From Acidobacteriota bacterium (GTDB lineage Bacteria > Acidobacteriota > Thermoanaerobaculia > Multivoradales > Multivoraceae): a stretch of 64,000 nucleotides of DNA. The stretch lies in the NCBI GenBank assembly GCA_028877275.1, contig JAPPFP010000001.1, forward strand, positions 62,001 to 126,000, written 5' to 3'. Shown here piece by piece: positions 3,142-44,221 of this stretch. Position numbers and translations under genes: made by a program. Under the pieces are notes generated by a model. That model was given only the letters and a program-made list of their open reading frames with translations. It was not told the DNA's origin and made no database searches. Each line of letters begins with the position of its first letter. Position 1 is the stretch's first letter.

Positions 3142-4455
3142 TCAGCCCCGGCCGGAGACGGGTATCCCGAACTCGCGGAGGGTTCCCTCCAGCGTCGGTC
3201 GTCCGAGGCGCATCCGGTCGTCGGTCAGCAGGTAGGAGAAGAGGAAGCCGCCGCCCAGCATGAGGATCCCGACCAGGAAGCAGTACATGACCGCGCGGTC
3301 CGGGTACACGTCCTTGAGGTAGCCCAGGTAGACGGGACCGACGATCCCCGCGGCCGCCCAGGCGGTAAGCACGGCGCCGTAGATCGAGGACATCTTCCGC
3401 GAACCGAACACGTCCAGGACGAAGGGCGGCATCGTGGCGAATCCGCCGCCGAAGCAGAGCAGGACGTAGCAGACGAGGGTCGAGAAGATCCAGGGATTCG
3501 TCTCGGTCATCAACACGCCGAACACGACCATCTGGCTGGCGAGCAGGATCCGGAACACTCTCACCCGGCCGATACGGTCCGAAAGGAGACCCCAGAACAG
3601 CCTCCCCACGCCGTTGCACAGCGAACTGATCGCGATCAGCGTGGCCCCGTACTCCGCCAGGGTCGCCGGCTCGAGCGACGGGTCGGAGAGACCCCAGACC
3701 TCCTGGAGCAGCTCCGACTGGAAGCTGATCACCGTGATGCCTGCCGCGATGTTGAAGAAGAAGACGATCCACATGAAGACGAACTGCTGGGAGCCGAGGT
3801 AGGTCTTGACCGCCGTGTCGTCCTCCGCGGACGCCGTCTCCGCGGCAGGCCCGGCGACAGCCTTCACGAGATCCGAGGGGACGGGCGGATCGCTCAGCAG
3901 CAGGCTGCAGGGGATCAGGAGACAGGCGAAGATGATGCCGAGCCAGAGGAACACCTGGGACAGGTCCTCGCCCGTGCGCACCACGAGCAGGGGCGCCAGC
4001 CCCTTGCTGAGCAGGAAGGCGCCGACGCCGAAGCCCATGACGACGATCCCGGTGACCAGCCCCTTGTGGTCGGGGAACCATTTGGCCACCGTCGCGACCG
4101 GCGTCACGTAGCCCAGGCCGATGCCGGCGCCGCCGACCACGCCATAGCCGACGTAGAACAGCGGCAGCATGTCCAGGCGGAGTGCGACCGCGGCGATCAG
4201 GTAGCCGGCCGAGAAGAGGATGCTGCCGATCAGGGCGAGCTTCCTGGGTCCCAACCGCGGCAGGACCTGGCCGGCCCAGGCCGCCGACACGCCGAGCGTG
4301 AAGATCGTGATGCTGAACGCCCAGGCCGTCTGCGAGAAGGTCCACCCCACCTGCCGGACCAGCATCGTCTGGAAGAAGCTCCAGGCGTACACCGTGCCGA
4401 AGCACAACTGGAGCGTCGTGCAGAGCAGCGCGATGACGGCTCTGGGAACTCGCAC
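3142..4455 (-). CDS. MFS transporter, oxalate/formate antiporter (OFA) family
   Basis: The product is about 437 residues with 12 predicted membrane segments. The N-terminal segment LQLCFGTVYAWSFFQ and the GGAGIGLGYVTPVATVAKWF motif are typical of OFA-family permeases, which carry small carboxylates. I chose the GTG at 4455 because it begins the conserved N-terminus (VRVPRAVIALL). An ATG at 4506 would add 17 unconserved residues and overlap the preceding gene. A hydrophilic loop of about 30 residues lies between the two six-helix halves. It lies between the HAMP sensor gene (7 nt upstream) and the prenyltransferase gene. The substrate is unknown. Confidence 0.85.
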   Translation of the reverse strand: MRVPRAVIALLCTTLQLCFGTVYAWSFFQTMLVRQVGWTFSQTAWAFSITIFTLGVSAAWAGQVLPRLGPRKLALIGSILFSAGYLIAAVALRLDMLPLFYVGYGVVGGAGIGLGYVTPVATVAKWFPDHKGLVTGIVVMGFGVGAFLLSKGLAPLLVVRTGEDLSQVFLWLGIIFACLLIPCSLLLSDPPVPSDLVKAVAGPAAETASAEDDTAVKTYLGSQQFVFMWIVFFFNIAAGITVISFQSELLQEVWGLSDPSLEPATLAEYGATLIAISSLCNGVGRLFWGLLSDRIGRVRVFRILLASQMVVFGVLMTETNPWIFSTLVCYVLLCFGGGFATMPPFVLDVFGSRKMSSIYGAVLTAWAAAGIVGPVYLGYLKDVYPDRAVMYCFLVGILMLGGGFLFSYLLTDDRMRLGRPTLEGTLREFGIPVSGRG

Positions 4456-4462
4456 GCCGGAG

Positions 4463-5203
4463 CTACTCCGTGCCGGAAACGCTCGCCGGCAGGCCCCGGC
4501 CGCCACCCTGGCGGGACACGTGAAGGAACAGGCGCGCCAGGTGGCCCACCTCGTCGTCGCGCGTCAGGATGTCGCGCTCGTCCAGCTCGTCGTTCTCTCC
4601 GTCCTTCGCCAGTTCCACCGCGTAGGCGAGGAGTTCGCCCAGCGGCTTGGCGGCCAGGTTGACGAACCAGATCGACGCCAGTACGCCGAGGACCAGCATG
4701 ACGCTGATCAGGTAGACCTGCTGGCCGATCGCCCGCTGGATCTTGAGCGCGACGACGTCGAGGTCCATGCCGACGTGGACGGTCCCGGCGACTCCGGCCA
4801 GGATCGGGCTGCCGACCTCGATGAAGTCGCCCATCCCGGGCAGGCTCCGTTCAACCGGCGCCGTGTTGCTGTGTTCGCTCTCGAGAATCTCCTCCGGGAT
4901 GCCGGGAACGAAGGTGTGCGCCAGGAACTCGCCGGTCTCGCTGGTGATGTAGATGTATCGGATGCCCTGAACCTCGAGGAACTGGTCGACCAGCGACTGC
5001 AACGTCGCGAGATTCTGGTTCAGCAGAATGCCGGCGCTCGAGTCCGCGATCGTCTTGGCGATGTTCTGGGTGTTGACCTCGTACTCCGCCGACAACTCGG
5101 TGTCGACGGTGTAGATGCAGAGAATCGAGGTCGACAGGACGATCAGGCCGAAGACGGCGAAGATGCCGAACCGCGTCCACTTGAACAGCCTGCGGATTCT
5201 CAT
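4463..5203 (-). CDS. Membrane sensor with periplasmic Cache-like domain and HAMP domain, no output domain
   Basis: The product is 246 residues. There is one membrane segment at about residues 13-32, an extracytoplasmic domain of about 120 residues containing IRYIYITSETGEFLAHTF (Cache/CHASE-like), a second membrane segment near 165-185, and a HAMP-like stretch (AAKPLGELLAYAVEL ... DDEVGHLARLF). It stops about 15 residues after the HAMP region, so no kinase, cyclase or methyl-accepting domain is present. The ATG lies 1 nt after the stop of the substrate-binding-protein gene, which indicates translational coupling. It could pass a signal to another protein or be a remnant of a longer receptor. 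Confidence 0.7.
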   Translation of the reverse strand: MRIRRLFKWTRFGIFAVFGLIVLSTSILCIYTVDTELSAEYEVNTQNIAKTIADSSAGILLNQNLATLQSLVDQFLEVQGIRYIYITSETGEFLAHTFVPGIPEEILESEHSNTAPVERSLPGMGDFIEVGSPILAGVAGTVHVGMDLDVVALKIQRAIGQQVYLISVMLVLGVLASIWFVNLAAKPLGELLAYAVELAKDGENDELDERDILTRDDEVGHLARLFLHVSRQGGGRGLPASVSGTE

Positions 5204-8692: not shown

Positions 8693-9363
8693 CTCGCCTC
8701 GCGCACCAGCACCTTCGACGCCGCCGGAAAGCCCAGGCTGAATTCGCGCGCGCCCGAGACCACGGCAACGCTCCCGGCCGTCTCGTCCCGCGCCGCCACC
8801 TCGACCTGGCTGCCCGGCACCAGCCCCTCGCGCTCCGCGAAGCGCAGGAACTCGGCGTTCTGATCGGTCACCCGAACCACCTCGACGACCTGGTTCAAGG
8901 CGCACTTCAGGAGGCTCGGATGATCGACGAGTTCGATGTGACCGTCGGCGCTTGGAATCGGGTCGCCGTGGGGATCCACCGATGGATGGCCGAGCATCTC
9001 GTCCATCCGCTCGATCATCCGCCCCGAAACGGAGTGCTCCAGCAACTCGGCCTCGGAGTGGACCTCACTCCAGTCGAAGCCCATCACGTTGACCAGGAAG
9101 AGCTCGATCAGCCGATGCCGCCTGAGCACGTGCGTCGCCAGCTTGCGACCAGCCGGCAGGAGTCGGACGCCGCTATACGGTTCGTACGCGACCAGTCCGG
9201 ACTCGGCCAGGGTCTTCATCATCGCCGTGACCGAGGCCGGAGCCACCTTGAGGCGCGCCGCGATCCTCCCCATCGGCACGAGCTGCGCACCCTCCATCCG
9301 GGCTTCATGCTCCGCCAGGAAGATGGACTTCAGGTAGTCCTCGACGGTGCTACTGGCGCGCAT
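8689..9363 (-). CDS. DtxR/MntR-family metal-dependent transcriptional repressor
   Basis: The product is 224 residues: an N-terminal winged helix (STVEDYLKSIFLAE, then MGRIAARLKVAPASVTAMM as the recognition helix region), a dimerisation/metal-binding part with VHSEAELLEHSVS and HPSVDPHGDPIP, and a C-terminal FeoA/SH3-like domain from about residue 150. Proteins of this family bind DNA when loaded with iron or manganese. The ATG lies inside the end of the isopentenyl phosphate kinase gene (14-nt overlap), so it is the last gene of the mevalonate operon. Why a metal regulator is coupled to isoprenoid genes is not clear from the sequence. Confidence 0.85.
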   Translation of the reverse strand: MRASSTVEDYLKSIFLAEHEARMEGAQLVPMGRIAARLKVAPASVTAMMKTLAESGLVAYEPYSGVRLLPAGRKLATHVLRRHRLIELFLVNVMGFDWSEVHSEAELLEHSVSGRMIERMDEMLGHPSVDPHGDPIPSADGHIELVDHPSLLKCALNQVVEVVRVTDQNAEFLRFAEREGLVPGSQVEVAARDETAGSVAVVSGAREFSLGFPAASKVLVREAS

Positions 9364-10189
9364 CTTCCACCTCGCCCGGACCAACGAGTGTACCGGCGCT
9401 CTTCGCCTCCCCTTCCGGATGCCGCAGGACCGACTCCAGAAGGCCGGGCCGGCGCCCGTCGATGATGAGAGATTCGACGCCGCGCCGCGCCAACGCCCAG
9501 GCGGTCGCAAGACGGTGCTCCATTCCGCCGGTGACATCGACCGCCGGCGAGCCGCCGGCGGCCTCCGACGCCGCTCCGATGTTCGCCGCGTCGATGCGGC
9601 GTACGAGCCGTCCGGCGTCGTCCAGCACGCCGGCCGTCGCACCCAGCCACACCGCCCGTCGCACCCGGACACCGAGCGGAACGAGGGCGCGGGCAAGGAA
9701 CTCGAACACCGTCTCCGTCGACGCAATCGAGGCCCCGCGCGTCCGGTCCACGACGACGTCACCCATCGTGACCGGCACCAGGCCCTCCCGCAACGCCGCG
9801 GCCAGCGGTGCGGGCGGCGGCCCGTCGGCCTCTCCGTCGTCAGCGACCAGAAAACCGGACGGCAGTTGCGAGTAGGCCGGCACGCCGGCCCCGACCAGAC
9901 TCTCGACGACCAGCCGGTGGAGCTCGACGGCCGCGGACTGCGTGCGCGCGATGCCCATCGGGTCCGCGTCAGGGCCTCGACGGGCGCCGCCCCGGCCGCC
10001 GGCGAGGCCGGCGGCGCGGGCCTCCGGGTGCCCGAAGGAGCCGCTGCCGTGACCAATCACGAGAGCGCCCCCCGACCACCCGGCCGCGATCTCGGCCGCC
10101 AGCCGCGGCAGGTGTTCCGTCGCTACCGTGCGCGGTTTTGTCTTGTCCGTGATCAGGCTGCCGCCGAGCTTGACCAGAGTGACATCCAA
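9350..10189 (-). CDS. Isopentenyl phosphate kinase (amino acid kinase family)
   Basis: The product is about 279 residues. The N-terminus TLVKLGGSLITDK, the segment LVIGHGSGSFGH with the catalytic histidine typical of this enzyme, and DVTGGMEHRLATAW near the C-terminus identify isopentenyl phosphate kinase. It phosphorylates isopentenyl phosphate to isopentenyl diphosphate and is the last step of the alternative mevalonate route. The start is uncertain: the TTG at 10189 begins the conserved N-terminus, while a TTG at 10231 would overlap the preceding stop (TTGA) and add 14 residues. Its presence beside a mevalonate-phosphate decarboxylase, with no phosphomevalonate kinase gene in the operon, explains its role. 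Confidence 0.85.
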   Translation of the reverse strand: MDVTLVKLGGSLITDKTKPRTVATEHLPRLAAEIAAGWSGGALVIGHGSGSFGHPEARAAGLAGGRGGARRGPDADPMGIARTQSAAVELHRLVVESLVGAGVPAYSQLPSGFLVADDGEADGPPPAPLAAALREGLVPVTMGDVVVDRTRGASIASTETVFEFLARALVPLGVRVRRAVWLGATAGVLDDAGRLVRRIDAANIGAASEAAGGSPAVDVTGGMEHRLATAWALARRGVESLIIDGRRPGLLESVLRHPEGEAKSAGTLVGPGEVEDARQ

Positions 10190-10227
10190 CCGCCCGGCCG
10201 CGGCTTGATGTCCGGCGGCGGCCGCGC

Positions 10228-11280
10228 TCAAGGCCCGGCTCCGCGCCGCCACACCGGCGGGCCGCCGGTGCGGTCGCGCAACACGCGCTCGACGCCGCCG
10301 AGGGCCATGAGCCGTTCCGCCACCCGCGACTCGTCGGCCGGCTGGCAGATCACGTGGACGTTCGCGCCGGCATCCATCGTGGCGTAGGCGGCGACACCGT
10401 CCACGCGCAGGTCGCGGACCGCGGCCAGCACCTCGATCGTGCCCGGTGTCCAGTAGTACACCGGAGGCCTGGACGACATCGCGATCAGGTGGAGATCGAT
10501 TCCCTCCTCCTCGATCGCCGGCCCCAGGGCCTCGAAGTCGCGCTGCCTGAGCGCGTCCCGCACCCGTTCCAGGCGCTCCTCGAGCGCCGCCAGACGCGGC
10601 GCGAAGTACGGACTGCTCGTCGCAAGCTGGTGCCCGTCCCGCGAGGACACCTTCTTGGCGCCGGTCTCGACGACGGCAACCACGTCGCACAGCCGCCACG
10701 CGTCCTCGTCCAGGATCTGAACCGCGCTGTTGTCGTCACCGTCGGGCCACTCCACATAACCGCCGTAGGCCGAGCGGGCGGCCGAACCCGACCCGCTGCT
10801 CCGTGACAGCGCGGACAGGGTCCGCGGCGGCAGGTCGAAGCCCATGGCGGCCGTCACGGCCAGAGTCAGGGCGGTGAAGCCCGAAGCCGAAGAGGCGATC
10901 CCGGCCGCCGCCGGGAACGTGTTGCCCGTCGCGATCCGGAACCCGCCCGTGTAGGGCGCCGCCGTCTGCCGCGACCACTCGCGCAGCCGGTCCAGGTGGC
11001 GCCGCGTGCGTTCGACGAAGGCCGGCGGCGCGTTCGTGGCGCCGTCTGAACGGCCCGGGCCCGGCTCTTCCAGCCAGACGATCTCGTCGTCCCGTCCGTC
11101 GGCCAGGGGAGACGCCGAGCAGATCGACCGGCAGGCGTCCAGGGTCATCGACAGCGAGCGGTTGAAGGGAACCGGCCCCTCGAGATCGCGGGCGCCCCAG
11201 TACTTGATGAAGGCGATGTTCGAAGGCGCCTCGGCCGTCACGGGCCCAGGCTCATGGGCCGGTTCCAACGCGGAGTTCAT
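10228..11280 (-). CDS. Phosphomevalonate or diphosphomevalonate decarboxylase (GHMP family)
   Basis: The product is 350 residues. Family marks are SNIAFIKYWGARD near residue 21, the GHMP phosphate-binding loop FPAAAGIASSASGF in the middle, and TMDAGANVHVICQ near the C-terminus, which carries the catalytic Asp of the decarboxylase. The family decarboxylates mevalonate 5-diphosphate, or mevalonate 5-phosphate in haloarchaea and Roseiflexus. Because the operon has isopentenyl phosphate kinase and no phosphomevalonate kinase, I infer the monophosphate as substrate; the sequence alone does not settle this. It follows mevalonate kinase by 12 nt. Confidence 0.85.
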   Translation of the reverse strand: MNSALEPAHEPGPVTAEAPSNIAFIKYWGARDLEGPVPFNRSLSMTLDACRSICSASPLADGRDDEIVWLEEPGPGRSDGATNAPPAFVERTRRHLDRLREWSRQTAAPYTGGFRIATGNTFPAAAGIASSASGFTALTLAVTAAMGFDLPPRTLSALSRSSGSGSAARSAYGGYVEWPDGDDNSAVQILDEDAWRLCDVVAVVETGAKKVSSRDGHQLATSSPYFAPRLAALEERLERVRDALRQRDFEALGPAIEEEGIDLHLIAMSSRPPVYYWTPGTIEVLAAVRDLRVDGVAAYATMDAGANVHVICQPADESRVAERLMALGGVERVLRDRTGGPPVWRRGAGP

Positions 11281-11292
11281 CTCTCCCGGAGC

Positions 11293-12408
11293 CTACAGTC
11301 GATCGACGGTGGGACTCTCGAATCTCAGGCCATCGGCGCCGATCGCCGCGTTCACAGGCTCGAGGTCCGAGATGCCCTCGATCGTCCCAGCCGACCGGCC
11401 ACCGAGCATGCAGATCAACGCACCGGCCGGCTCGCCTTCAAGAGCCCCGGCCCCGGAGATTTTCGCCGCGCCCCCGGCAGCTTCCACCGACGCGATCCGG
11501 CGTGCGACCGCCGGCGGCACAACGCCGAGCTCGACCAGGGCGCGATGACCGTCGGCGACGGCGGAGGCCGCATCCCGCGGCCCGCCGTCCTCAAGCGCCG
11601 CGCGAAAGGACTCCACCGCCGCCGCGATGCGGTCGAACACGGCGGTCGTCCGCTCAGGCCCTTCCTCGTAGCGCCGTCGCACCGCCGTGACCACCGCACC
11701 CGTGGTCTGGCTTGGAGTCCCGCTGTCGAGGATCTCGACCGCGCCGGGAAGCCACTCCGGCCGCGGCAAGTCGTCGAATCGCAACTCGTCACCCACACGG
11801 CTGACGAGCAGGACGCCACCACGGAGAACCGTTCCACTGTCGATTCCAGACGGGAAACCGTGCTGACGCCGCTCGACCTCCAGCGCCGCCGCCTCGATCG
11901 CCGCCAGTTCGTCGGGCGAGCGACCCCGCCTCCCTGCCAGTGCGCGCACGGCAGCAACCACTCCAACGCCAGCCGCGGCAGAACTGCCGAGGCCGGCACC
12001 AACCGGAAGCTGGGACCGCAACCGCAACTCAAGTCCCCGTCGTCGCAGCCGTTTCGAAACCGCCGGTGGCAAAGATGCCGCCGCTTCACCGACCGCGATC
12101 CGGACCAGGGCACTCCGGTCGTCCGCCGGCCTGAACGGGCCGTCGCCCGCTTGGAACCTGTCCCATCGACTGCGGGCGCGGTTCGTGAAGTCTTCAATCG
12201 CCGGCCAGGTGTGCTCTTCCTGAAGACCCAGGTCAGGCAAGTCCAGGCGAACCCGGCCGACGCCCGTCGGATCGCGACGGGCTTCAACGGCAAGGCGCAG
12301 GTCCACCGCCGCCACCACCGCCGGCCGGCCGTACACCGCCGCGTGCTCCCCCATCAGGATCACCTTGCCCGGCACGCTCAACCGCACCACAGAGGCCTCC
12401 ACCGTCAT
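11293..12408 (-). CDS. mvk: Mevalonate kinase (GHMP family)
   Basis: The product is 371 residues. The N-terminal substrate/ATP segment PGKVILMGEHAAVYGRPAVV (residues 13-32), the phosphate-binding loop PVGAGLGSSAAAGVG and the catalytic region GFPSGIDSGTVLRGG match mevalonate kinase. The third GHMP motif reads KISGAGALEG rather than the usual GAGGGG, a mild departure. It converts mevalonate to mevalonate 5-phosphate. It lies between the GNAT gene (22 nt upstream) and the decarboxylase gene in the same operon. Confidence 0.9.
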   Translation of the reverse strand: MTVEASVVRLSVPGKVILMGEHAAVYGRPAVVAAVDLRLAVEARRDPTGVGRVRLDLPDLGLQEEHTWPAIEDFTNRARSRWDRFQAGDGPFRPADDRSALVRIAVGEAAASLPPAVSKRLRRRGLELRLRSQLPVGAGLGSSAAAGVGVVAAVRALAGRRGRSPDELAAIEAAALEVERRQHGFPSGIDSGTVLRGGVLLVSRVGDELRFDDLPRPEWLPGAVEILDSGTPSQTTGAVVTAVRRRYEEGPERTTAVFDRIAAAVESFRAALEDGGPRDAASAVADGHRALVELGVVPPAVARRIASVEAAGGAAKISGAGALEGEPAGALICMLGGRSAGTIEGISDLEPVNAAIGADGLRFESPTVDRL

Positions 12409-12430
12409 GAAGCGACCCGGCGCTTCAGGC

Positions 12431-12448
12431 TCAACCCGCGCGTGCGGC
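12431..12448 (+). repeat. 18-bp direct repeat, copy 1 (end of GNAT gene)
   Basis: TCAACCCGCGCGTGCGGC occurs here and again exactly 600 bp further on at the end of the HMG-CoA reductase gene. Both copies supply the last five codons and the stop of their gene. The flanking bases are only loosely similar. Confidence 0.8.
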
Positions 12449-13024
12449 GTCGGAGCGGTCCAGCTTGATCGTTCGCGTCACCACCCACTTGTCCTTCCCG
12501 ATCTGCCGCGATCGCTTGAAGCCGCTCCGTTCGAACATGGACAGCGAACCGTTGAAGAGGAATGCCGGCGAGGCTTTTCTGCCTTCTGTGTTTTCCGGGT
12601 ACGCCTCAACGCGCCCGCCGCCCAGCGTCCTGATTTGCTCGATGGCGCCTTTCAATGCAACTGAAGCGACGCCGTTGCCGCGATGTCCATTACCGGAAAA
12701 GAAGCAGGTGATCCGCCAGTCGGGCAAGACCGGATCGGTCTTCCGATAGGCACGCTGATTGTGGATCCGCGGAAGCTCCTCCGGCGATCCAAACTGGCAC
12801 CAGCCCACGCAGTCCTCGCCCTCGAAGACAAGCGAGGCGTGCGCCCGGCCTTCACGAACGAGGCGTTCCTTCGCCTTGCGCTTTTGAGCGGGGGTCTTAT
12901 CCCCGCTGACTTCCTTCCCGTGGTACCACATGCACCAGCACCCGCCCCAGACACCGTTGTTCGCCTCGACGAGGCGCGCGAATTCCGGCCAGGTCGTCTC
13001 GTCGAGCGCCCTGGTTTCATACAT
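12431..13024 (-). CDS. GNAT-family N-acetyltransferase inserted in the mevalonate operon
   Basis: The product is 197 residues. The C-terminal half has the acetyl-CoA-binding region (GHRGNGVASVALKGAIEQIR) and a late SMFERSGFKRSRQ strand, as in GNAT acetyltransferases. The N-terminus has an unusual cysteine/tryptophan-rich segment, NNGVWGGCWCMWYHG, that marks a distinct subfamily found in assorted soil bacteria. There is no known link to isoprenoid synthesis. Its last 18 nt, which encode AARAG and the stop, are identical to the last 18 nt of the HMG-CoA reductase gene, and this suggests it was inserted there. The substrate is unknown. Confidence 0.75.
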   Translation of the reverse strand: MYETRALDETTWPEFARLVEANNGVWGGCWCMWYHGKEVSGDKTPAQKRKAKERLVREGRAHASLVFEGEDCVGWCQFGSPEELPRIHNQRAYRKTDPVLPDWRITCFFSGNGHRGNGVASVALKGAIEQIRTLGGGRVEAYPENTEGRKASPAFLFNGSLSMFERSGFKRSRQIGKDKWVVTRTIKLDRSDAARAG

Positions 13025-32422: not shown

Positions 32423-35400
32423 TCAGAACTGGAGCCGAAGACCCGCCCGTACGCGGCGGCTGGCCTGAAAGGCGGCGGGAAGCGATTCGCGCAGGTCCGG
32501 CCTTGCGCCCTGCGCCGCCGCGGCGGCGAGCAGGTCGGTCCGGCCCGGGGCGGCGAGCACCGGGTCGAGCCAGGGGAGCGGCCAGAGCTGGTTCGCGGCG
32601 TCCTGGTCGAAGACGTTGAGGGCCTCGGCGAAGAAGGACAGCCGCCGGTGGTCCGAGCGCAGCGGCACGCGGTAGGTCAGAGAAAGGTCCGCGCGCTTGA
32701 GATCGGCGCTCTTGAGCGGCGCGTCACGGCCGCGCGGCAGCGGGGTCAGGCCCGTGCTGAGGATGCGGCCTGCTTCGTCGACCCGGACCGTCAGGGCCCG
32801 CGGCACGTAGGCGGCGCCCGTCCGGAAGCGGTAGACCAGAGCCATCAGCCAGCGTTCGCCCGGCGACAGGACGAGCCAGCCGGAGAGTTGGTGCTCGCGA
32901 TCGAGGCTCAGCCGGCGGCTGTCGTCCGTCACGTCGAACACATCGCAGGGCACGGGCGACGAGCAGAGATCGAGCGCGGCCAGGACCGGATGGGCGCCGG
33001 GGAAGGCGCCCGCCTCGAGCCCCAGGCCCCCGGCCTCGTGGTTGCCGGACAGCCGGCTCATGAGGTACGAGAAGTGGATCCTCCAGGAAGGGCTGAAGCC
33101 GACGTTCGCGTTGAACTCGGCGCCCCACCAGTCCTGCTCGAGCTGGGGGAGCTCACCGCCGGCGCCCCGGCCGGGGGTCAGCAGGGTCGGGGCGATCTGG
33201 CCGTCGGCCACCAGCGGCATGAGACGGATGCCGTCCCGCAGCCGGCGCCGGGAGACGCGCGCCGAAACCACGACGTCGGGCAGGAACTGATAGCCCGTCC
33301 CCAACTGGATCTCGCGCACCCGCGCCGGACGGAGGTCCGGATCCGCCGCCGCCCGCGCGAAGTCGAGGCGTGTGCCGCTGAAGCCGCCGGCGCCCTCCAG
33401 TGCCGCGACCGCGTCGAGGTCGGAGCGCCCTGCCCGCGGCCGCAAGACGTCGACGTGCCACCACGCGGCGCCGCCGTAGACCTTCCATCTGCCGCGGCCG
33501 GCGACGTCCCAGACGAACGCGAGCCGCGGCTCCGTGCGGTCCTCGAACTCGAGGTCGAGGGGACCCGCCTCTTCCTCTTCGGCGCGCAGTCCAGCGTGCA
33601 GGGTCAGGTGCCTCTTGAAGGCTCCACCCACGCGCCAGGCGTCCTGCACGTAGAGGGCGCGCTTCTCCTGGCGGAGGCCGGCTGCGCCGAGCGGTCCACC
33701 GCTCCAGGCGTCGACCGCTCCGCCCGGAAACCGCAGCACCCGTCCGGAACCCTCCGCGCGGCGAAGCTCGAGGCTGCTCCTGGAATCCTGAATGCCGATT
33801 TCCAGCGTGTGGTCGAAGAGGAAGAACGACGGTTCGATCGCCCAGTTCCGGCGTTCCGCGGCGCGGCGGACCCGGCCCGCCGGCGCGGCCTCGTACCAAC
33901 CCGCCGGCCGCCCGTGGGCGGGCGCCGCGAAGTACAGGCCAGCGTCCTGCCAGGCGTCGCCGTCCTCGATGAGATCGGATCGTCCGCCGAACACGCGCAA
34001 CCACAGGCGGTCGGTGACTCCCCACTCGACGTTGAGGCTGGTCGTCTGCCTTCGCGACCGGTCGTTCTCCCTTCCGTCCAGCGACGGAAGGACCTCCAGC
34101 GCCGGCCGCCGGCCGTCGAGGTCGCCGGACCCGGCATGGTGCTTCAGGGTCAGGTTGCTGGCCGAACCGGCCCACCAGTCGAGCTTGCCGACCGACTGCT
34201 CGATCGTCTCGTCCCAGGTCATCGGCGCGGCCGCGCCGAACAGGCTCTCCGTACCGCGGGTACGGCTTCTCGAGTAGCCGCCGAACGCACGCGCCCGCTT
34301 GTCCCGCAGCGGGCCGCCGGCAAAGACGGTGGCCTCGTCGCCCTCGACGCGCCTCCTGTCCCTGCCGCCGGCCGGCGACTCTCCGGCAGCGAACAGTCGC
34401 AGGGCAAGCCTCTCGCCGTTGTCCAGCGGTTCGACCGTCGACCAGCCGCCGTTCACCCGCCAGTCGGTCCCTCCCGAGCGTGTGACCAGGTCGATGTGGG
34501 GCCCGGCCATCGTCGCCGCCAGTTCCATCGTCCAGACGCGCACCTGATCCACCCAGCGGGGATCGATGGCGGTCGACCCCGGTTCGCGTAGCGCGCTCTC
34601 CTGACCGTCGATGCGGTAGTTGGCGAAGCCCGGCGGCCAGCCGTTGACCGCGATGTCCGGGGCCAGGGCGTCGAGGCCGGACGCCAGGTCCAGGTTGAGG
34701 GCAGCGACGGCGCCCGGCAACTGCCGCAGGTCGTCACCGGCGAGGACGTTCCCATCGCTGCCCGTGACCACGTCGAGCAATGGCGAGGAAACGAGGTCGA
34801 GCGCCGACTCGCTACCGGCCCTCATGTGGAAGTCGACCCGCAGCACGCCCCCCGCGACCAGGATCAGGTTCTCGACGACGGAGGTCGCGTAGCCGTCCAG
34901 GGTCGCCTCGACGTAGTAGTCGCCGGGGGGCAGGCCCGGCGCCCGAAAACTGCCGCCGCGACCGGCGCGAACGGTCTGGGTGCTGTGCAACTGGTCGCCG
35001 GTGATCCTGATCTCGGCGCCCGGCAGCGGAACGTCGGTAGCCGCGTCGCGTACCTGACCGTTGATCTCGCCGTTCAGGCCCGCCATGGCGGGGCTCGGCG
35101 AAACCAGGCTCAGGCCGACGACGGCCGCGACCAGCACCGCCGTGACCGCCGGCGCGGCCGCCAGGCGGGTCGGCTCCTGCTTCGGCAGGAGCAGTGAAGC
35201 GAAGGCGGACACCAGGCCCACGACGGCGCCGGCCTGCAACACGGCCGCGAGTTCGAAGCGATCCGCAAGCCCTCCGATACCCCACGTCGCGATCCCGCCC
35301 GTCGCGAACAGGAATCCGAGCGCCGTCCCCGAAGCCAGACCCCGACGCCACGGCAGCAACTCCTGAGCCATGACGATCAGGATGGAGTGCGATGCTCCCA

Positions 35401-36349
35401 GCAGCGCTCCGCAGGGCAACACGACCGCAAAGATCCAGCCCCCGGATCCGGGCAGCACGGCCAGCAGCAGGGAACCGAGCAGCGTGGTCAGGAAGACAAT
35501 CGGGCGTCGACCCCAGCGATCAGCCCAGGCGCCCGCGAAGACCGCCGTCAGAGCGCCTCCGAGCAGGAACAGCGCGCTGGCGGAACCCTGAGCCAGGGAG
35601 CTGTATCCCCGCTGGCTCAGCAGGAGGGGCAGAAACCCCATCGTTCCGAACATGGCCCAGGAGCGGCTGGCGAACACCAGACCGAGGAGAGCGATGACGC
35701 CGCCGCGGACAGGTCGCCGGCGGCCGGCCGGCACATCGGCGGCGCCGGTCTGATCCTCAGTCGGCTGCGAGGTTGCCGGCGCCGGGTGAAACCTGCGCGG
35801 CCCCATCGCGAAGACCATGAACAGCGGCACCGGCGCTGCGAGGAGCAGGAGCCAGTAGATCCCGTTCAGCCCCGCCCGATCGAGGGCCAGTCCGGCCAGG
35901 ACCGGCCCGGTCGTCAGCCCGAGTTGACCGCAGAAGAAGAAGATCGCGGTGAAGGTGGCCGAGCGGGCCAGGTTCACCGTGCTGGAGTGCATCACTCCCA
36001 ACGGATGAAAGGCGCCCGAAGCAACCGCAGCCAGCGCGAAGGGAATGAGAAACAGGACGAATCTCTGCGTCGCGGCGGCGGCCGCGACCGCCAGGCCCAT
36101 GCAGGCGAAGTTGAAGGCGACGCTGAACGGGCCCAGGAAGCGACTGCCGATCCGGTCGACCAGCCAGCCGAAGGCCGGCTGCGTGGTGCCGGCCAGGACC
36201 TGGAACAGACCCACCGCGAGCCCGATCTGGGCGGCGCTGAGACCGAGCGGCGCCTGCAGGAAAGCCAGCAGGACCGGTCCCATGCTGTTGAAGATGTCGA
36301 TGCCGAGGTGACCTACTGTCACCGCCGCGAAGATCCGCCGGCCGTTCAT
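32423..36349 (-). CDS. In-frame fusion: MFS permease followed by TonB-dependent-receptor-like protein
   Basis: This is one 1308-codon frame with two unrelated parts. Residues 1-390 form a 12-helix MFS permease, resembling the fosmidomycin-resistance group (AAVTVGHLGIDIFNSMGPVL at the start). Residues 396-423 look exactly like a signal peptide (AVLVAAVVGLSLVSPSPAMA, cleavage after 423). From 424 there is a carboxypeptidase-regulatory domain (INGQVRDAATDVPLPGAEI), a plug-like region (YRIDGQESALREP) and a long barrel ending in aromatic QF, as in outer-membrane receptors. Such parts belong in different membranes. A GTG at 35137 could start the receptor separately, but no clear ribosome site precedes it. 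The fusion may be processed, may be two genes with a lost stop, or may be an assembly error. Confidence 0.75.
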   Translation of the reverse strand: MNGRRIFAAVTVGHLGIDIFNSMGPVLLAFLQAPLGLSAAQIGLAVGLFQVLAGTTQPAFGWLVDRIGSRFLGPFSVAFNFACMGLAVAAAAATQRFVLFLIPFALAAVASGAFHPLGVMHSSTVNLARSATFTAIFFFCGQLGLTTGPVLAGLALDRAGLNGIYWLLLLAAPVPLFMVFAMGPRRFHPAPATSQPTEDQTGAADVPAGRRRPVRGGVIALLGLVFASRSWAMFGTMGFLPLLLSQRGYSSLAQGSASALFLLGGALTAVFAGAWADRWGRRPIVFLTTLLGSLLLAVLPGSGGWIFAVVLPCGALLGASHSILIVMAQELLPWRRGLASGTALGFLFATGGIATWGIGGLADRFELAAVLQAGAVVGLVSAFASLLLPKQEPTRLAAAPAVTAVLVAAVVGLSLVSPSPAMAGLNGEINGQVRDAATDVPLPGAEIRITGDQLHSTQTVRAGRGGSFRAPGLPPGDYYVEATLDGYATSVVENLILVAGGVLRVDFHMRAGSESALDLVSSPLLDVVTGSDGNVLAGDDLRQLPGAVAALNLDLASGLDALAPDIAVNGWPPGFANYRIDGQESALREPGSTAIDPRWVDQVRVWTMELAATMAGPHIDLVTRSGGTDWRVNGGWSTVEPLDNGERLALRLFAAGESPAGGRDRRRVEGDEATVFAGGPLRDKRARAFGGYSRSRTRGTESLFGAAAPMTWDETIEQSVGKLDWWAGSASNLTLKHHAGSGDLDGRRPALEVLPSLDGRENDRSRRQTTSLNVEWGVTDRLWLRVFGGRSDLIEDGDAWQDAGLYFAAPAHGRPAGWYEAAPAGRVRRAAERRNWAIEPSFFLFDHTLEIGIQDSRSSLELRRAEGSGRVLRFPGGAVDAWSGGPLGAAGLRQEKRALYVQDAWRVGGAFKRHLTLHAGLRAEEEEAGPLDLEFEDRTEPRLAFVWDVAGRGRWKVYGGAAWWHVDVLRPRAGRSDLDAVAALEGAGGFSGTRLDFARAAADPDLRPARVREIQLGTGYQFLPDVVVSARVSRRRLRDGIRLMPLVADGQIAPTLLTPGRGAGGELPQLEQDWWGAEFNANVGFSPSWRIHFSYLMSRLSGNHEAGGLGLEAGAFPGAHPVLAALDLCSSPVPCDVFDVTDDSRRLSLDREHQLSGWLVLSPGERWLMALVYRFRTGAAYVPRALTVRVDEAGRILSTGLTPLPRGRDAPLKSADLKRADLSLTYRVPLRSDHRRLSFFAEALNVFDQDAANQLWPLPWLDPVLAAPGRTDLLAAAAAQGARPDLRESLPAAFQASRRVRAGLRLQF

Positions 36350-39634: not shown

Positions 39635-40765
39635 CTAGAGAGAGTCCTGGGGTGTGCCGCGCGACGGCCGAGCCATGAACAGCGGAACCACTGCGAGGAG
39701 GGAGAAGAAGAGGAGAGCAGGCGCGAGAAAGCCAGGCCAGATCCAGATCCTGTTGCCGCCCGCAGCACTCTCGTACGTCGGGACGGGAACCGCGCCCTCC
39801 TGCTGCAGCCGCCGGACCCGGTCCGGCGGAAAGGCGTGGCGCAGGTTGCCGTCGGGATTCCGGACTTCCTCCAGCACGGCCGGGTAGTAGCGGTTCAGGA
39901 TTGCCTGTTCGGCCGCGGCGGTCGGCCAGTCCTCCGCGTCGAAGGCCTCGTTGCGGGCCTGGACGTGCCACGCGGCCTCGGACAGGAAGTGGTCCTCGAT
40001 GTGCCAGGGCTGGAAGGGTGGCGTCGGCGGCTGCTTCGCGGGCCAGCGCGCCCGGCGGTCCTGGTTCAGGCTCTCGAGCCGCTCGGCGCTGTAGTAGCTG
40101 CGGAAGCTCCCGAGTTCCGGGTCGCTGATCCGGTGGCCGAGGTTCGTCAGGTCGACGAGCCCCATCGACATGACGACCAAGCCGACCCAAAGCGCGGCGA
40201 TCGTCCGCCGCTCCGCGGGGGCGGGCGCCCGAGTATCGAATCCGAACAGTCCCGCCCCAAACACGACCCCGCAGCCGGCGGCCGAGGCGTTCAGCAGGCA
40301 GTCGTAGAAGTCGCCGGCCCGAACCCAGACCAGCCACTGGATGAACTCGTCGGCGAGCCCGACGAGCGAAGTCAGTACCGCCGCCGAGAGGGCGGCCGCG
40401 ATCGCCGAACGGCCGCTACGGAGGAGGGCCCGGTAGAGCAGCAGAGCGACGACTCCGTAGAGCACAAGGTGCATCCGCTCCAGGGCGGATTCCTCCGGAC
40501 GTCCGCGAGCGAGTGCCGTCGCCTGCACGATGGCCCAGAGCGCCCCGACACCGAGTGCGGCGTAGTTGCTCCACCGGAGTCGCCGCGCCGAGCGGACGAT
40601 CCACACAACGAACGCCGCCGCAACGCCCCAGAACAGGATCGTCGGCACGATCACCAGAAGCGAACGGTCGACATCCTCCTGAATCCACCGGGTCAGGCGA
40701 CCCAGGAAGGGCGCCGAACCGACGATCCAGAGGGCGATCAGGGAAGGTGCCGCGAAACGGCGCAT
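39635..40765 (-). CDS. VanZ-like membrane protein with C-terminal hydrophilic domain
   Basis: The product is 376 residues. About six membrane helices fill the first 220 residues. MHLVLYGVVALLLYRAL followed by GLADEFIQWLVWVRAGDFYDCLLNASAA matches the VanZ-like pattern (DExxQ ... gDxxDxxxN). From about residue 220 to 340 there is a soluble domain of unknown kind (HIEDHFLSEAAWHVQARNEA), then a last helix. VanZ relatives are linked to glycopeptide resistance or cell-envelope functions, but most have no proven role. It is divergent from the sterol methyltransferase gene. Confidence 0.75.
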   Translation of the reverse strand: MRRFAAPSLIALWIVGSAPFLGRLTRWIQEDVDRSLLVIVPTILFWGVAAAFVVWIVRSARRLRWSNYAALGVGALWAIVQATALARGRPEESALERMHLVLYGVVALLLYRALLRSGRSAIAAALSAAVLTSLVGLADEFIQWLVWVRAGDFYDCLLNASAAGCGVVFGAGLFGFDTRAPAPAERRTIAALWVGLVVMSMGLVDLTNLGHRISDPELGSFRSYYSAERLESLNQDRRARWPAKQPPTPPFQPWHIEDHFLSEAAWHVQARNEAFDAEDWPTAAAEQAILNRYYPAVLEEVRNPDGNLRHAFPPDRVRRLQQEGAVPVPTYESAAGGNRIWIWPGFLAPALLFFSLLAVVPLFMARPSRGTPQDSL

Positions 40766-40850
40766 TGGGGGGACGGACGCTAGCAGCCTGGTGTCGACAG
40801 GCGTGTAGGCTCATGGCAGGAGGCAGGAAGAGGTAATCGGGAGGGAGCAC

Positions 40851-41924
40851 ATGGCAGAGCCAGCGCGAATCGACGTCCACCGCACGGAAGGAGCCCCGCA
40901 TCGTCGTCCCGTCTCGGCGAACAGCGGCGGCGACCTGAGAGAGGCGCTCGACGATTTCCTCGAACTGAAGGAGATGGTCGCGGCCCGGGAGGGTGATCGA
41001 GCCCTTCACGACCAGCCGCAGATGGTGAGTCGCTTCTACGATGTCGTCACCAAGTTCTACGAGTACGGCTGGGGCCAGTCGTTCCACTTCTCCCCCCGCC
41101 GTTCCGGGGAGGGCCTGCTGGCGGCGCAACGCCGACATGAGACCGGCGTCGGCGAACTCCTGGCCCTCGGGCCTGGGTCGAGAGTCGCCGACATTGGCTG
41201 CGGTGTCGCCGGGCCGCTGGTCACGATAGCGAAGGCCACCGGCGCAAGCATCACCGGGATCAACCTCAACGCGTACCAGATCGCTAGAGGCCAGCGATCG
41301 CTACGCCGCGCCGGCCTTCACGAAACGTGCGGTTTCCTGCTCGCCAGCTACATGGACGTGCCGCTCGACGACGGCTACTTCGATGCCGCGTACTCGTTCG
41401 AATCGACCTGCCACGCGCCCGACAAGGCTCTCTGCTTCGAAGAGCTCTATCGGCTGCTCAGGCCGGGGGGCGAGCTTGCCCTGATCGACTGGTGCCTGAC
41501 CGAGGACTTCGACGAGCACGACCCGGTCCATCGCGACATCCGGGACCGACTCGAGTTCGGAAACGCGACACCCAACCTGCTCACGACGTCCAGCCAACTC
41601 GACCTCGTTCGGGCCGTCGGTTTCGAGATTCTCTCGAGCTGTGACCAGGCGCTCGAATGCGACCCGGACACTCCCTGGTACCGGTCGCTCCAGGGCCGCG
41701 ACCTCTCGCTCGCGTCACTCGGGCGGATTCCCGCCGGCCGGTGGTTCACCGCCAGGGCGACCAGTCTGCTGGAGCTGCTGCGCATCGCGCCCGCCGGCAC
41801 CGGCGAGGCCGCCCGCATCCTCAACGTCGCGGCCGACTCCCTCGTCGAGGCAGGCGTCGCCGGGATCTTCACGCCGTCCTTCCTGATCCACGCGCGCAAA
41901 CCGGGCGGCTCGGTCTCTTCATAG
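40851..41924 (+). CDS. Sterol C24-methyltransferase (SMT/Erg6-like)
   Basis: This is a 357-residue SAM-dependent methyltransferase. The sterol-methyltransferase region FYEYGWGQSFHFSPR (residues 69-83) corresponds to the FYLYGWGxSFHF motif of Erg6. SAM motif I is VADIGCGVAGP (112-122), and YSFESTCHAPDKALCFEE (181-198) mirrors the YxIEATCHAP motif of sterol methyltransferases. A C-terminal domain of about 100 residues follows, as in that family. The eukaryotic enzyme methylates C24 of a sterol side chain. The ribosome site GGGAGG precedes the ATG. The Rieske oxygenase gene follows 16 nt later, so the pair is an operon acting on sterols or similar triterpenoids (inference). Confidence 0.85.
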   Translation: MAEPARIDVHRTEGAPHRRPVSANSGGDLREALDDFLELKEMVAAREGDRALHDQPQMVSRFYDVVTKFYEYGWGQSFHFSPRRSGEGLLAAQRRHETGVGELLALGPGSRVADIGCGVAGPLVTIAKATGASITGINLNAYQIARGQRSLRRAGLHETCGFLLASYMDVPLDDGYFDAAYSFESTCHAPDKALCFEELYRLLRPGGELALIDWCLTEDFDEHDPVHRDIRDRLEFGNATPNLLTTSSQLDLVRAVGFEILSSCDQALECDPDTPWYRSLQGRDLSLASLGRIPAGRWFTARATSLLELLRIAPAGTGEAARILNVAADSLVEAGVAGIFTPSFLIHARKPGGSVSS

Positions 41925-41940
41925 CGGCTGGAGGTCCACC

Positions 41941-43095
41941 ATGGGCTCCAGGACTCGCCGTTCGCGGCATCGGGAACCGCCGACATCGGACGACCTGCGT
42001 CTCGCCAGCTATCCCCATCCCTATCCGGACGGCTGGTATCGGCTGATGACCTCGAAGTCACTCCGGCGCGGGCAGCTCCGCTACCTGGAGTGCCTCGGCC
42101 GCGCCCTGGTCGTGTGGCGGAGCGAAGACGCCGACGACGTGCACGCCATGCAGGCGTCCTGCCCCCACCTGGGCGCCAACCTCCGGCACGGCCGCGTCCA
42201 AGAGAACCGCATCGAGTGTCCGTTCCACAACTGGCAGTTCACCGGCGACGGCCGGGCGGCCCGCGTGCCCTACAGCGACAGCGTGCCGTCCCGCGTCGCG
42301 GCCGAGAGCTTTCCGGTACAGGACGTGCATGGGCAGATCTTCATGTATCACCGAAGCGGCGGCGCCAAACAGCAGGCGGGCGACGAGGTGCCGTATCCCG
42401 TCCCGCGGCTCCCGGAAGTCGACGACGGGAGGTTCGTTTTCCGCGGGCACTACGACGCCGGCCGCGTCCACATGCACATCATCGAGTTCGTCGAGAACGC
42501 AGCCGACTTTGCCCACTTCAGCTACATCCACGAGCGGATGAACGTTCCGTGGACGCAGATCCCGGTCCCCGGCGTAGCGATCGAGCACATCCCCGGCGTG
42601 GAGTTCCCCGAGGACCGGCCGTGGACGATGCACTTCCTCGACGAGGCCGTGCTCAAGTTCCGCGGCCGTCCTCTCGAACGGACACGGACGAGGGCTCGGG
42701 CAACGTTCACCGGCGCCGCCAGCGTCGTGAACTTCAGGTTCTTCATTCCCGACACCGGCGAGATCGACCTCTGTCAGACCCACCTTCCGATCTCGCCTCT
42801 CGAGCAGCAGGTCGACTTTCGCTGGTTCGCCGACCGAAAGGTCCCGCGGCTGCTGGCCTGGTACGTCGTCGGCAACTGGATCTCCCAGTGGCGCCACGAC
42901 ATCCGGATCTGGGAGAACAAGACCTATCTCGACCACCCGACCCTCTGCCGCGACGACGGGCCCGTGGTCCGCATGCGGCGCTGGTATCGGCAGTTCTTCC
43001 CGGACCCACAACCGGCGGGGAAGCCGCCCGGGATGCCGCAGCGGACGCCGAGCGAGCGTGCTGAAGGCCGGCTGGTCGGTGCAGTCTCCAACTGA
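41941..43095 (+). CDS. Rieske oxygenase resembling cholesterol 7-desaturase (DAF-36/Neverland type)
   Basis: The product is 384 residues. It begins with YPHPYPDGWYRL, then the Rieske cluster CPH (Cys74, His76) and CPFH (Cys93, His96). The mononuclear iron site is ENAADFAHFSYIH (Asp189, His192, His197). The order and spacing, and phrases such as CPHLGANL and IECPFHNWQFTGDGR, fit the DAF-36/Neverland/Des7 group that introduces the C7-C8 double bond in cholesterol. The bacterial 3-ketosteroid 9-alpha-hydroxylase KshA is a more distant relative. Unlike animal enzymes it has no obvious membrane helix at the N-terminus. A ribosome site GGAGG precedes the ATG. The electron-donor reductase is not in the window. 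Confidence 0.82.
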   Translation: MGSRTRRSRHREPPTSDDLRLASYPHPYPDGWYRLMTSKSLRRGQLRYLECLGRALVVWRSEDADDVHAMQASCPHLGANLRHGRVQENRIECPFHNWQFTGDGRAARVPYSDSVPSRVAAESFPVQDVHGQIFMYHRSGGAKQQAGDEVPYPVPRLPEVDDGRFVFRGHYDAGRVHMHIIEFVENAADFAHFSYIHERMNVPWTQIPVPGVAIEHIPGVEFPEDRPWTMHFLDEAVLKFRGRPLERTRTRARATFTGAASVVNFRFFIPDTGEIDLCQTHLPISPLEQQVDFRWFADRKVPRLLAWYVVGNWISQWRHDIRIWENKTYLDHPTLCRDDGPVVRMRRWYRQFFPDPQPAGKPPGMPQRTPSERAEGRLVGAVSN

Positions 43096-43096
43096 C

Positions 43097-44221
43097 GTGC
43101 TGCGCTTTCTGACAGCCGCCTTGTGCGTCCCGTTGACCGGCATGACCGCACCGGCGCCGGCCACCGATCCGGAGTCGAACCCGGTGGTGCGCATCGAGCG
43201 CTGGATCGAAGGCGGCGCCCGAGTCGACTGGTCCCGTCAGGGCGACTGGCTGGCCTACGACAAGGCCGGAGAGGACGGCCGCTACGACGTCTACATCACC
43301 TCCACTGACCTCCTGGCCGAGCGCTGCCTGACCTGCGACATGTACGCGCTGCGCAAGGACAACGCGATGAACCCGGTATGGCACCCCTCGGGCGAGCGAC
43401 TCGTCGTGCAGGTCCAGAGCCACCCGAAGCGGCTCAGGTTCGTGGCCGATCCGCTGCGGCTCCTGAATCCGGACCGCGGCGTTCACAGCGAGTTCTACGA
43501 CATCGACCGCAGGGGCAAGCACTTCACCCTGCTCACCCGGTTCGCGGCCAGCGGCTCGGCGGTACTCGACCCCCACTTCGCCTTCGACAGCGACCGGCTG
43601 CTGTGGAGCGAGCGGATCAAGGCGCGCAAGGGGCGTTACGGAGCCTGGCAACTGCGCAGCGCCCAGTTCCAGGTCAACCGCAGCGGCATCCCCAAGCTGC
43701 GCAGGATCAAGACCTACCCCGCGCCGGCCGACGCGCTGATCGTCCCCCAGGGTTACACCCCCGACGACCGCGGCGCCCTGGTCGCCGCGAACCTCGAGCC
43801 CGGGCAGTCGCCCGACTCACTCGACCTCTACCGGCTGCGGTTCGACGGCGGCGAGCCCGAGCGCCTGACCCACTCCCGGAGCGGCGCCGACGAGTATGCC
43901 CGCCTGTCGCCCACCGGCAGGCACCTCGCCTTCACGTCGAACGCCGGGATCCGCGGCACCGAGCCCGATCAGATGGTGCCTGCCTCTGCCCGTCGCGAGT
44001 TGTGGCTGATGGACGCGGACGGCTCGAACAAGCGCCGGCTCACGTTCTTCAACGACCCGACGTCCGAGCACAGCCTCGGTCACACCTACGTCGGCGATCT
44101 GGCCTGGAGTCCGGGCGGCGACCAGATCGCCGTCCACGTCCTCTGGGGCGGCAACCGAAACGGCGACCGCCCGCGAGAGGCGTTGTACCGTATCCACCTG
44201 GACCCGTCGTTCCGGCGCTGA
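43097..44221 (+). CDS. Exported TolB/PD40-type beta-propeller protein
   Basis: The product is about 374 residues. A signal peptide follows the GTG (LRFLTAALCVPLTG). The mature protein has several WD40-like PD40 blades: DWSRQGDWLAYDK, PVWHPSGERLVVQ, ARLSPTGRHLAFTSN and LAWSPGGDQIAVH. The repeats would form a periplasmic propeller of unknown ligand. The chosen GTG overlaps the Rieske gene's stop region by one base, so it may be translationally coupled to that gene. It is followed by the amidohydrolase pair. Confidence 0.75.
   Translation: MLRFLTAALCVPLTGMTAPAPATDPESNPVVRIERWIEGGARVDWSRQGDWLAYDKAGEDGRYDVYITSTDLLAERCLTCDMYALRKDNAMNPVWHPSGERLVVQVQSHPKRLRFVADPLRLLNPDRGVHSEFYDIDRRGKHFTLLTRFAASGSAVLDPHFAFDSDRLLWSERIKARKGRYGAWQLRSAQFQVNRSGIPKLRRIKTYPAPADALIVPQGYTPDDRGALVAANLEPGQSPDSLDLYRLRFDGGEPERLTHSRSGADEYARLSPTGRHLAFTSNAGIRGTEPDQMVPASARRELWLMDADGSNKRRLTFFNDPTSEHSLGHTYVGDLAWSPGGDQIAVHVLWGGNRNGDRPREALYRIHLDPSFRR

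Follow-up and report, generated by a model that had tools for sequence, protein, structure and literature searches.

The 64,000-nucleotide stretch of an Acidobacteriota genome that was analysed here (the window) carries a two-gene operon in which a predicted sterol C24-methyltransferase (SMT1) is followed by a Rieske oxygenase (RO1), and this pair probably tailors exogenous sterols. SMT1 would catalyze the S-adenosylmethionine-dependent C24 methylation of a sterol whose side chain carries a double bond, whereas RO1, presumably as the second step, would insert oxygen into the steroid or desaturate it, with electrons supplied by a reductase encoded elsewhere. C7 desaturation is one possible reaction, and the substrate of RO1 could also be a compound that SMT1 does not produce. 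The sterol would stem from a sponge host or from neighboring symbionts that synthesize sterols de novo, among which Chloroflexota and gammaproteobacteria with clusters bearing an oxidosqualene cyclase (OSC) could serve as sources.

Both genes are located on the forward strand, start with ATG and are intact. SMT1 (40851-41924, 357 aa) is preceded by the Shine-Dalgarno-like sequence GGGAGGGAGCAC (40839-40850, forward strand) and ends with a TAG stop codon at 41922-41924. A 16 nt spacer (41925-41940, forward strand) harbors a GGAGG ribosome site for RO1 (41941-43095, 384 aa), with GGAGGTCCACC directly 5' of the RO1 start codon at 41941. An earlier note on this DNA had described an operon of two genes 16 nt apart with good ribosome sites, the Erg6 motifs YEYGWGQSFHF and YSFESTCHAP in the first gene and intact Rieske and mononuclear iron ligands in the second. 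Open reading frames and sequence confirmed the layout, both motifs are present in SMT1, the ligands are invariant among the RO1 homologues, and the operon is real in that the pair is conserved across two phyla.

On the left, a divergent gene for a VanZ-like membrane protein (39635-40765, reverse strand) marks the edge of the cassette, because it adjoins the right flank in G176, a complete single-contig congener with an empty site and neither SMT nor RO between the flanks. On the right, a gene for a PD40/TolB-like beta-propeller protein (43058-44221, forward strand) follows. Translation probably begins at a site 3' of the GTG at 43058, and relatives of the protein align only from residue about 22. 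As this gene is kept in G176, it probably lies outside the SMT1-RO1 unit. Both flanks are conserved and are not obvious partners of the pair; no candidate for a dedicated reductase, a sterol transporter or DHCR24 was identified beside the operon. Elsewhere in the window (32423-36349, reverse strand), a single 1308-aa frame encodes an MFS transporter fused with a carboxypeptidase-regulatory and TonB-dependent-receptor region; three other congeners also have this frame uninterrupted, at identities as low as 70%.

Domain content, phylogeny and motifs support an identity of SMT1 as an Erg6-type sterol methyltransferase. Behind a class I SAM methyltransferase domain, SMT1 contains the Pfam domain Sterol_MT_C (PF08498, 66.7 bits versus a cut-off of 21.7, 2e-18). 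In a control Pfam scan this domain was also obtained for a gammaproteobacterial SMT adjacent to a gene fusing squalene epoxidase and OSC (SQE-OSC), for the Chloroflexota and gammaproteobacterial homologues, and for an Erg6 sequence, which scores as an SMT in Pfam and which we take to be suitable as a yardstick only. The domain was missing from five other methyltransferases in the same scan, and PF08498 had no match in any of 14 control genomes. The regions YEYGWG..FHF, GCGV.GP, ExxCHAP and FTP..L..ARKP are present in SMT1, with most columns invariant in the alignment (A2). In the tree, the deep nodes of which are only moderately supported (94/91), SMT1 groups with the Erg6 yardstick, the OSC-linked SMT and a second SMT type (SMT2), apart from nine of the ten other methyltransferases; a Legionella plasmid protein and an Acidobacteriota protein form two long rows of unsure placement. 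A tocopherol or other small-molecule methyltransferase was rejected by the domain, the control scan and the tree, in agreement with the Erg6-type assignment made in the earlier note. AlphaFold models of SMT1 and RO1 reached a pLDDT of only about 45 owing to shallow alignments.

The sequence of RO1 assigns it to the Rieske oxygenases of the KshA_C class, which is known for activity on steroids; RO1 is not SdmA, cannot clearly be called KshA, and is a candidate sterol oxygenase or desaturase. Pfam analysis revealed KshA_C (PF19298, 83.2 bits, 3.4e-23) and Rieske (77 bits, 1.5e-21) domains. Across 11 homologues, no variation was seen at the Rieske ligands C74-x-H76 and C93-xx-H96 or at the mononuclear-iron ligands D189, H192, H197 and D320; the patterns C-x-H/C-xx-H and D-xx-H-xxxx-H...D are common to the wider Rieske oxygenase family. 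A function as SdmA 4-methylsterol monooxygenase was ruled out, as RO1 scored 55.5 bits with the NCBIfam model NF052579, which has a cut-off of 600 bits. This model gave 400-408 bits for the Rieske proteins of OSC-bearing clusters, and the one that was scanned with Pfam has a VanA_C catalytic domain.

The closest solved structures to RO1 are those of KshA, the oxygenase of 3-ketosteroid 9-alpha-hydroxylase (E 6e-38), which shares its two-domain architecture, and a profile search also retrieved KshA; no Neverland, DAF-36 or DES7 was among the PDB matches. Plasmid searches returned remote relatives only, which served as comparators, and RO1 is about 27% identical to the plasmid KshA-like proteins. 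In the Rieske tree, RO1 and its Chloroflexota homologues form a separate clade (support 99/100, branch length 1.0), far from RO2, the second type of symbiont oxygenase. In this tree, which is without Neverland, DAF-36 and DES7 rows, the nearest comparators are a kstD-linked KshA of Tsukamurella and a Rhodococcus relative, with weak support (87/77).

The earlier note had regarded RO1 as a cholesterol C7-desaturase of the DAF-36/Neverland type. Its placement among Rieske oxygenases of the KshA_C class was supported, while the C7-desaturase part is tentative, given that the nearest solved relatives and the tree comparator are KshA. KshA and Neverland fall in one clan, and published Rieske trees place the KshA_C class together with Neverland (PMC4064121), so that C7 desaturation is possible for RO1. 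The intact iron ligands are consistent with it, as is Capsaspora, which uses an SMT and a Rieske C7-desaturase on outside cholesterol. However, the nearest relatives in comparisons without Neverland, DAF-36 and DES7 are KshA enzymes and RO1 showed no feature diagnostic of C7 chemistry, and we consider it unlikely that RO1 is such a desaturase and that the pair yields C24-methyl 5,7-diene (ergosterol-like) sterols. Both the position on the sterol at which RO1 would react and an ergosterol-like outcome are what we infer rather than observe.

It is even harder to envisage RO1 as a KshA that degrades steroid nuclei, with SMT1 being incidental. KshA is the best-matching solved family, and sponge metagenomes contain divergent KshA clusters (PMC5790920), yet RO1 was not found within KshA and in the catabolic context of KstD and KshB. 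A long branch of its own separates RO1 from the kstD-linked KshA of Tsukamurella, and the partner of RO1 in two phyla is an SMT, not KstD or KshB. No KstD orthologue was present; matches to KstD-like flavoproteins were weak and partial, at most about 36%, and the best one came from G176, a genome lacking both SMT and RO. Moreover, steroid catabolism has no evident place for side-chain methylation, and this explanation is very improbable.

To describe the distribution of the pair, orthologues were compared among 297 sampled Acidobacteriota genomes. SMT1 orthologues with at least 73% identity (73-97%) were found only in the genus of the window, in ten of its 11 genomes, and are at the same place in the nine genomes other than that of the window. 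Outside the genus, full-length SMT1 homologues were seen in two Acidobacteriota genomes; they share about 35% identity and belong to the SMT2 type. RO1 is present at 75% identity or more in nine of the 11 genomes, directly after SMT1 in the same order and on the same strand. The locus thus occurs with both genes (nine genomes), with the SMT only (G108) or with neither (G176). In G108 the first bases of RO1 are still there, which indicates that RO1 was deleted; since SMT1 was kept, coupling of the two steps is not obligatory.

In Dehalococcoidia (Chloroflexota), RO1 homologues with 52-56% identity were detected in ten of 294 genomes. In six of these ten, an intact SMT gene directly precedes the RO1 homologue on the same strand, and one of the six has this arrangement twice; the SMT-RO pair of a seventh genome (G451) is decayed. 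In several Chloroflexota homologues the SMT stop and the RO start overlap (TGATG). Compared with the window, dN/dS is 0.06-0.28 for SMT1 and 0.16-0.38 for RO1, by which measure purifying selection acts on both genes. The domain scores, the orthologues in nine genomes and the low dN/dS place the observation beyond chance, and a chance SMT-Rieske pairing was rejected because the same order is found in the Acidobacteriota genus and in Chloroflexota. By these comparisons, SMT1-RO1 is a conserved operon with its gene order kept in both phyla. Two forms of RO1 exist (loci L004-L013), with most of their differences in the catalytic domain (residues about 211-300), and the RO1 tree is at odds with that of the neighboring SMT1. 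These two observations suggest gene exchange between lineages.

The genome to which the window belongs is 98% complete. Squalene epoxidase (PF08491) had no match in the whole genome, and no OSC was found; the single PF13243 match and sole cyclase is a squalene-hopene cyclase with the motif DCDDTA, adjoining an HpnH-like radical SAM gene. The earlier note had seen no squalene epoxidase or OSC nearby and had asked for the search to be extended to the rest of the genome; its observation holds genome-wide, and a de novo sterol pathway was rejected for this genome. Metagenome-assembled genomes can miss genes; the same absence was seen in congeners of one and three contigs. A congener, G160, has a 1162-aa SQE-OSC fusion, which the remaining congeners searched did not yield; G297 and G299 also carry such a fusion. 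In G160 the gene stands alone beside RND pump genes (L152, G160:C22:205001-223000, 9075-12563, reverse strand). The G160 fusion served as a positive control, showing that SQE and OSC genes are recognized where present, and implies that one of the ten SMT1-bearing genomes of the genus could cyclise oxidosqualene. The other SMT1-bearing genomes have only cyclases of the squalene-hopene type, judged by frame length and score. As the bacterium makes hopanoids and is without SQE and OSC, the sterol is likely to come from outside, which fits the host or environmental sterol that the earlier note had considered. The near-universal lack of sterol-synthesis genes in carriers of the pair likewise suggests remodelling of sponge or neighbor sterols.

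Sterol reductases of the ERG4/ERG24 family (PF01222) were obtained in all ten SMT-bearing genomes of the genus, usually two per genome, and in the genome of the window they are located at G000:C3:201321 and C30:297752. G176, which has no SMT, gave no match for PF01222, PF08498 or PF19298. G297 and G299 have a reductase gene within their OSC-bearing clusters, and ERG24a, one of the PF01222 reductases, shares 65-69% identity with its product.

These inventories also bear on the possibility that SMT1 methylates an endogenous non-sterol isoprenoid such as squalene and that RO1 oxidises the product, the pair thereby serving hopanoid-type or other endogenous lipids. The genome carries squalene-synthase-family and hopene-cyclase genes and no sterol cyclase, and the triterpene (squalene) methyltransferases of Botryococcus are relatives of Erg6. 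This explanation is nevertheless improbable: G176 and G152 have hopene-cyclase-type genes yet lack the pair, the PF01222 sterol reductases co-occur with it, and SMT1 resembles the SMT that adjoins an SQE-OSC gene.

Alternatively, the ancestor might have made sterols, with the genus now losing the pathway and the pair being kept only transiently. The SQE-OSC fusion in G160, the similarity of ERG24a to the OSC-cluster reductase of G297 and G299, the deletion of RO1 in G108 and a stop codon in RO2 of G262 would be in line with such a remnant. On the other hand, both genes are under purifying selection, both frames are intact in nine of 11 genomes of the genus, and the pair is also found in Chloroflexota, outside the de novo cluster, which leaves little probability for this scenario. 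We retain the tailoring of exogenous sterols as the probable function.

A second locus in the genome (G000:C17, about 525-535 kb) encodes RO2, which is a second KshA-type Rieske oxygenase, two GPP34-P450 fusions, an amine-oxidase-type flavoprotein and an RND pump, and includes SMT2 in several congeners. Together with the two ERG4/ERG24-family reductases, RO2 and the GPP34-P450 fusions probably act on the same sterol pool as SMT1 and RO1. The cluster spans 8499-18319 of L088 (G000:C17:517001-536000), and homologous clusters are L089, L090, L091, L092, L096, L097, L157 and L160. Similar clusters were observed in Chloroflexota, gammaproteobacterial and Gemmatimonadota genomes as well as in the distant acidobacterium G206. 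In the fusions a Golgi phosphoprotein 3 domain (GPP34) is joined to a cytochrome P450, and the literature searched held no paper on such fusions. RO2 of G262 is interrupted by an in-frame stop (L158, G262:C14, about 3774-4769), so that the second cluster may be decaying there.

Named relatives of the pair-bearing bacteria appear to come from marine sponges, and a sponge origin is also presumed for the genome of the window. The SB06xx, COS and jk18 isolates are, judging from their names, very probably sponge MAGs. Isolate 277c_1 (L011) shares the sample number 277c with a metagenome of Petrosia ficiformis (PMC8941161).

We tentatively propose, as a possibility rather than an expectation, that sponge associates from at least two bacterial phyla, the majority of them unable to make sterols themselves, share a horizontally spread SMT-Rieske operon and further tailoring genes, and thereby convert host or neighbor sterols into side-chain-alkylated, ring-oxidised (possibly 5,7-diene) sterols. 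If true, some of the sterol signal of sponges, biomarker precursors included, would be due to bacterial tailoring of shared sterols, whereas such unusual sterols are now credited to the sponge, and RO1 would represent a novel type of bacterial Rieske enzyme working with an SMT. The identity of the producers of alkylated demosponge sterols matters for sponge biology and for 24-alkyl steranes, which are used as the oldest biomarkers of animals. Previous studies have addressed which symbionts synthesize sterols de novo, whereas the operon points to apparent non-makers that seem to rework the sterols of others. As a compact and easily expressed gene pair, SMT1-RO1 lends itself to testing such reworking.

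While bacterial SMTs in sponges have already been published, an SMT-Rieske operon without de novo synthesis appears to be new; neither this arrangement nor sterol tailoring by it in sponge symbionts was reported in the open-access literature searched. Brown et al. 2023 (PMC10070321) showed in vitro activity for SMTs of uncultured and sponge-symbiont bacteria, among them a functional SMT of a Chlamydiae MAG that has no further genes for sterol synthesis. SMT1 shares with these the SMT domain architecture, the Erg6 motifs and the origin from uncultured bacteria; however, the clustered SMTs of that study adjoin OSC, SdmA and SdmB, whereas the partner of SMT1 is a KshA_C-type Rieske protein in a genome without OSC and SQE. 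Ircinia symbionts carry ERG24-CYP51-LSS clusters flanked by SMT1 as well as scattered SMT genes (Kelly et al. 2022, PMC9531527). In the msb cluster, an SMT occurs together with a Rieske gene for which an SdmA-like role has been proposed (PMC7074536). Occurrence in sponge symbionts of several phyla, horizontal spread and the presence of SMT and ERG24-family genes are common to these clusters and the genes described here, but SMT1-RO1 stands separately, without cyclase, CYP51 or SdmA, and its Rieske protein belongs to another subclass. KshA, in contrast to RO1, is associated with KstD and KshB, which are not in the RO1 neighborhood. Neverland, DAF-36 and DES7, which were compared through the literature, are Rieske oxygenases of the KshA-containing clan, from which RO1 differs in being bacterial and encoded in an operon with an SMT. 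In Capsaspora, where such an enzyme operates beside an SMT, cholesterol from medium or serum is converted into ergosterol by a Rieske C7-desaturase, an SMT and a C22-desaturase (PMC4967820), and this is the nearest worked example of the tailoring of an outside sterol.
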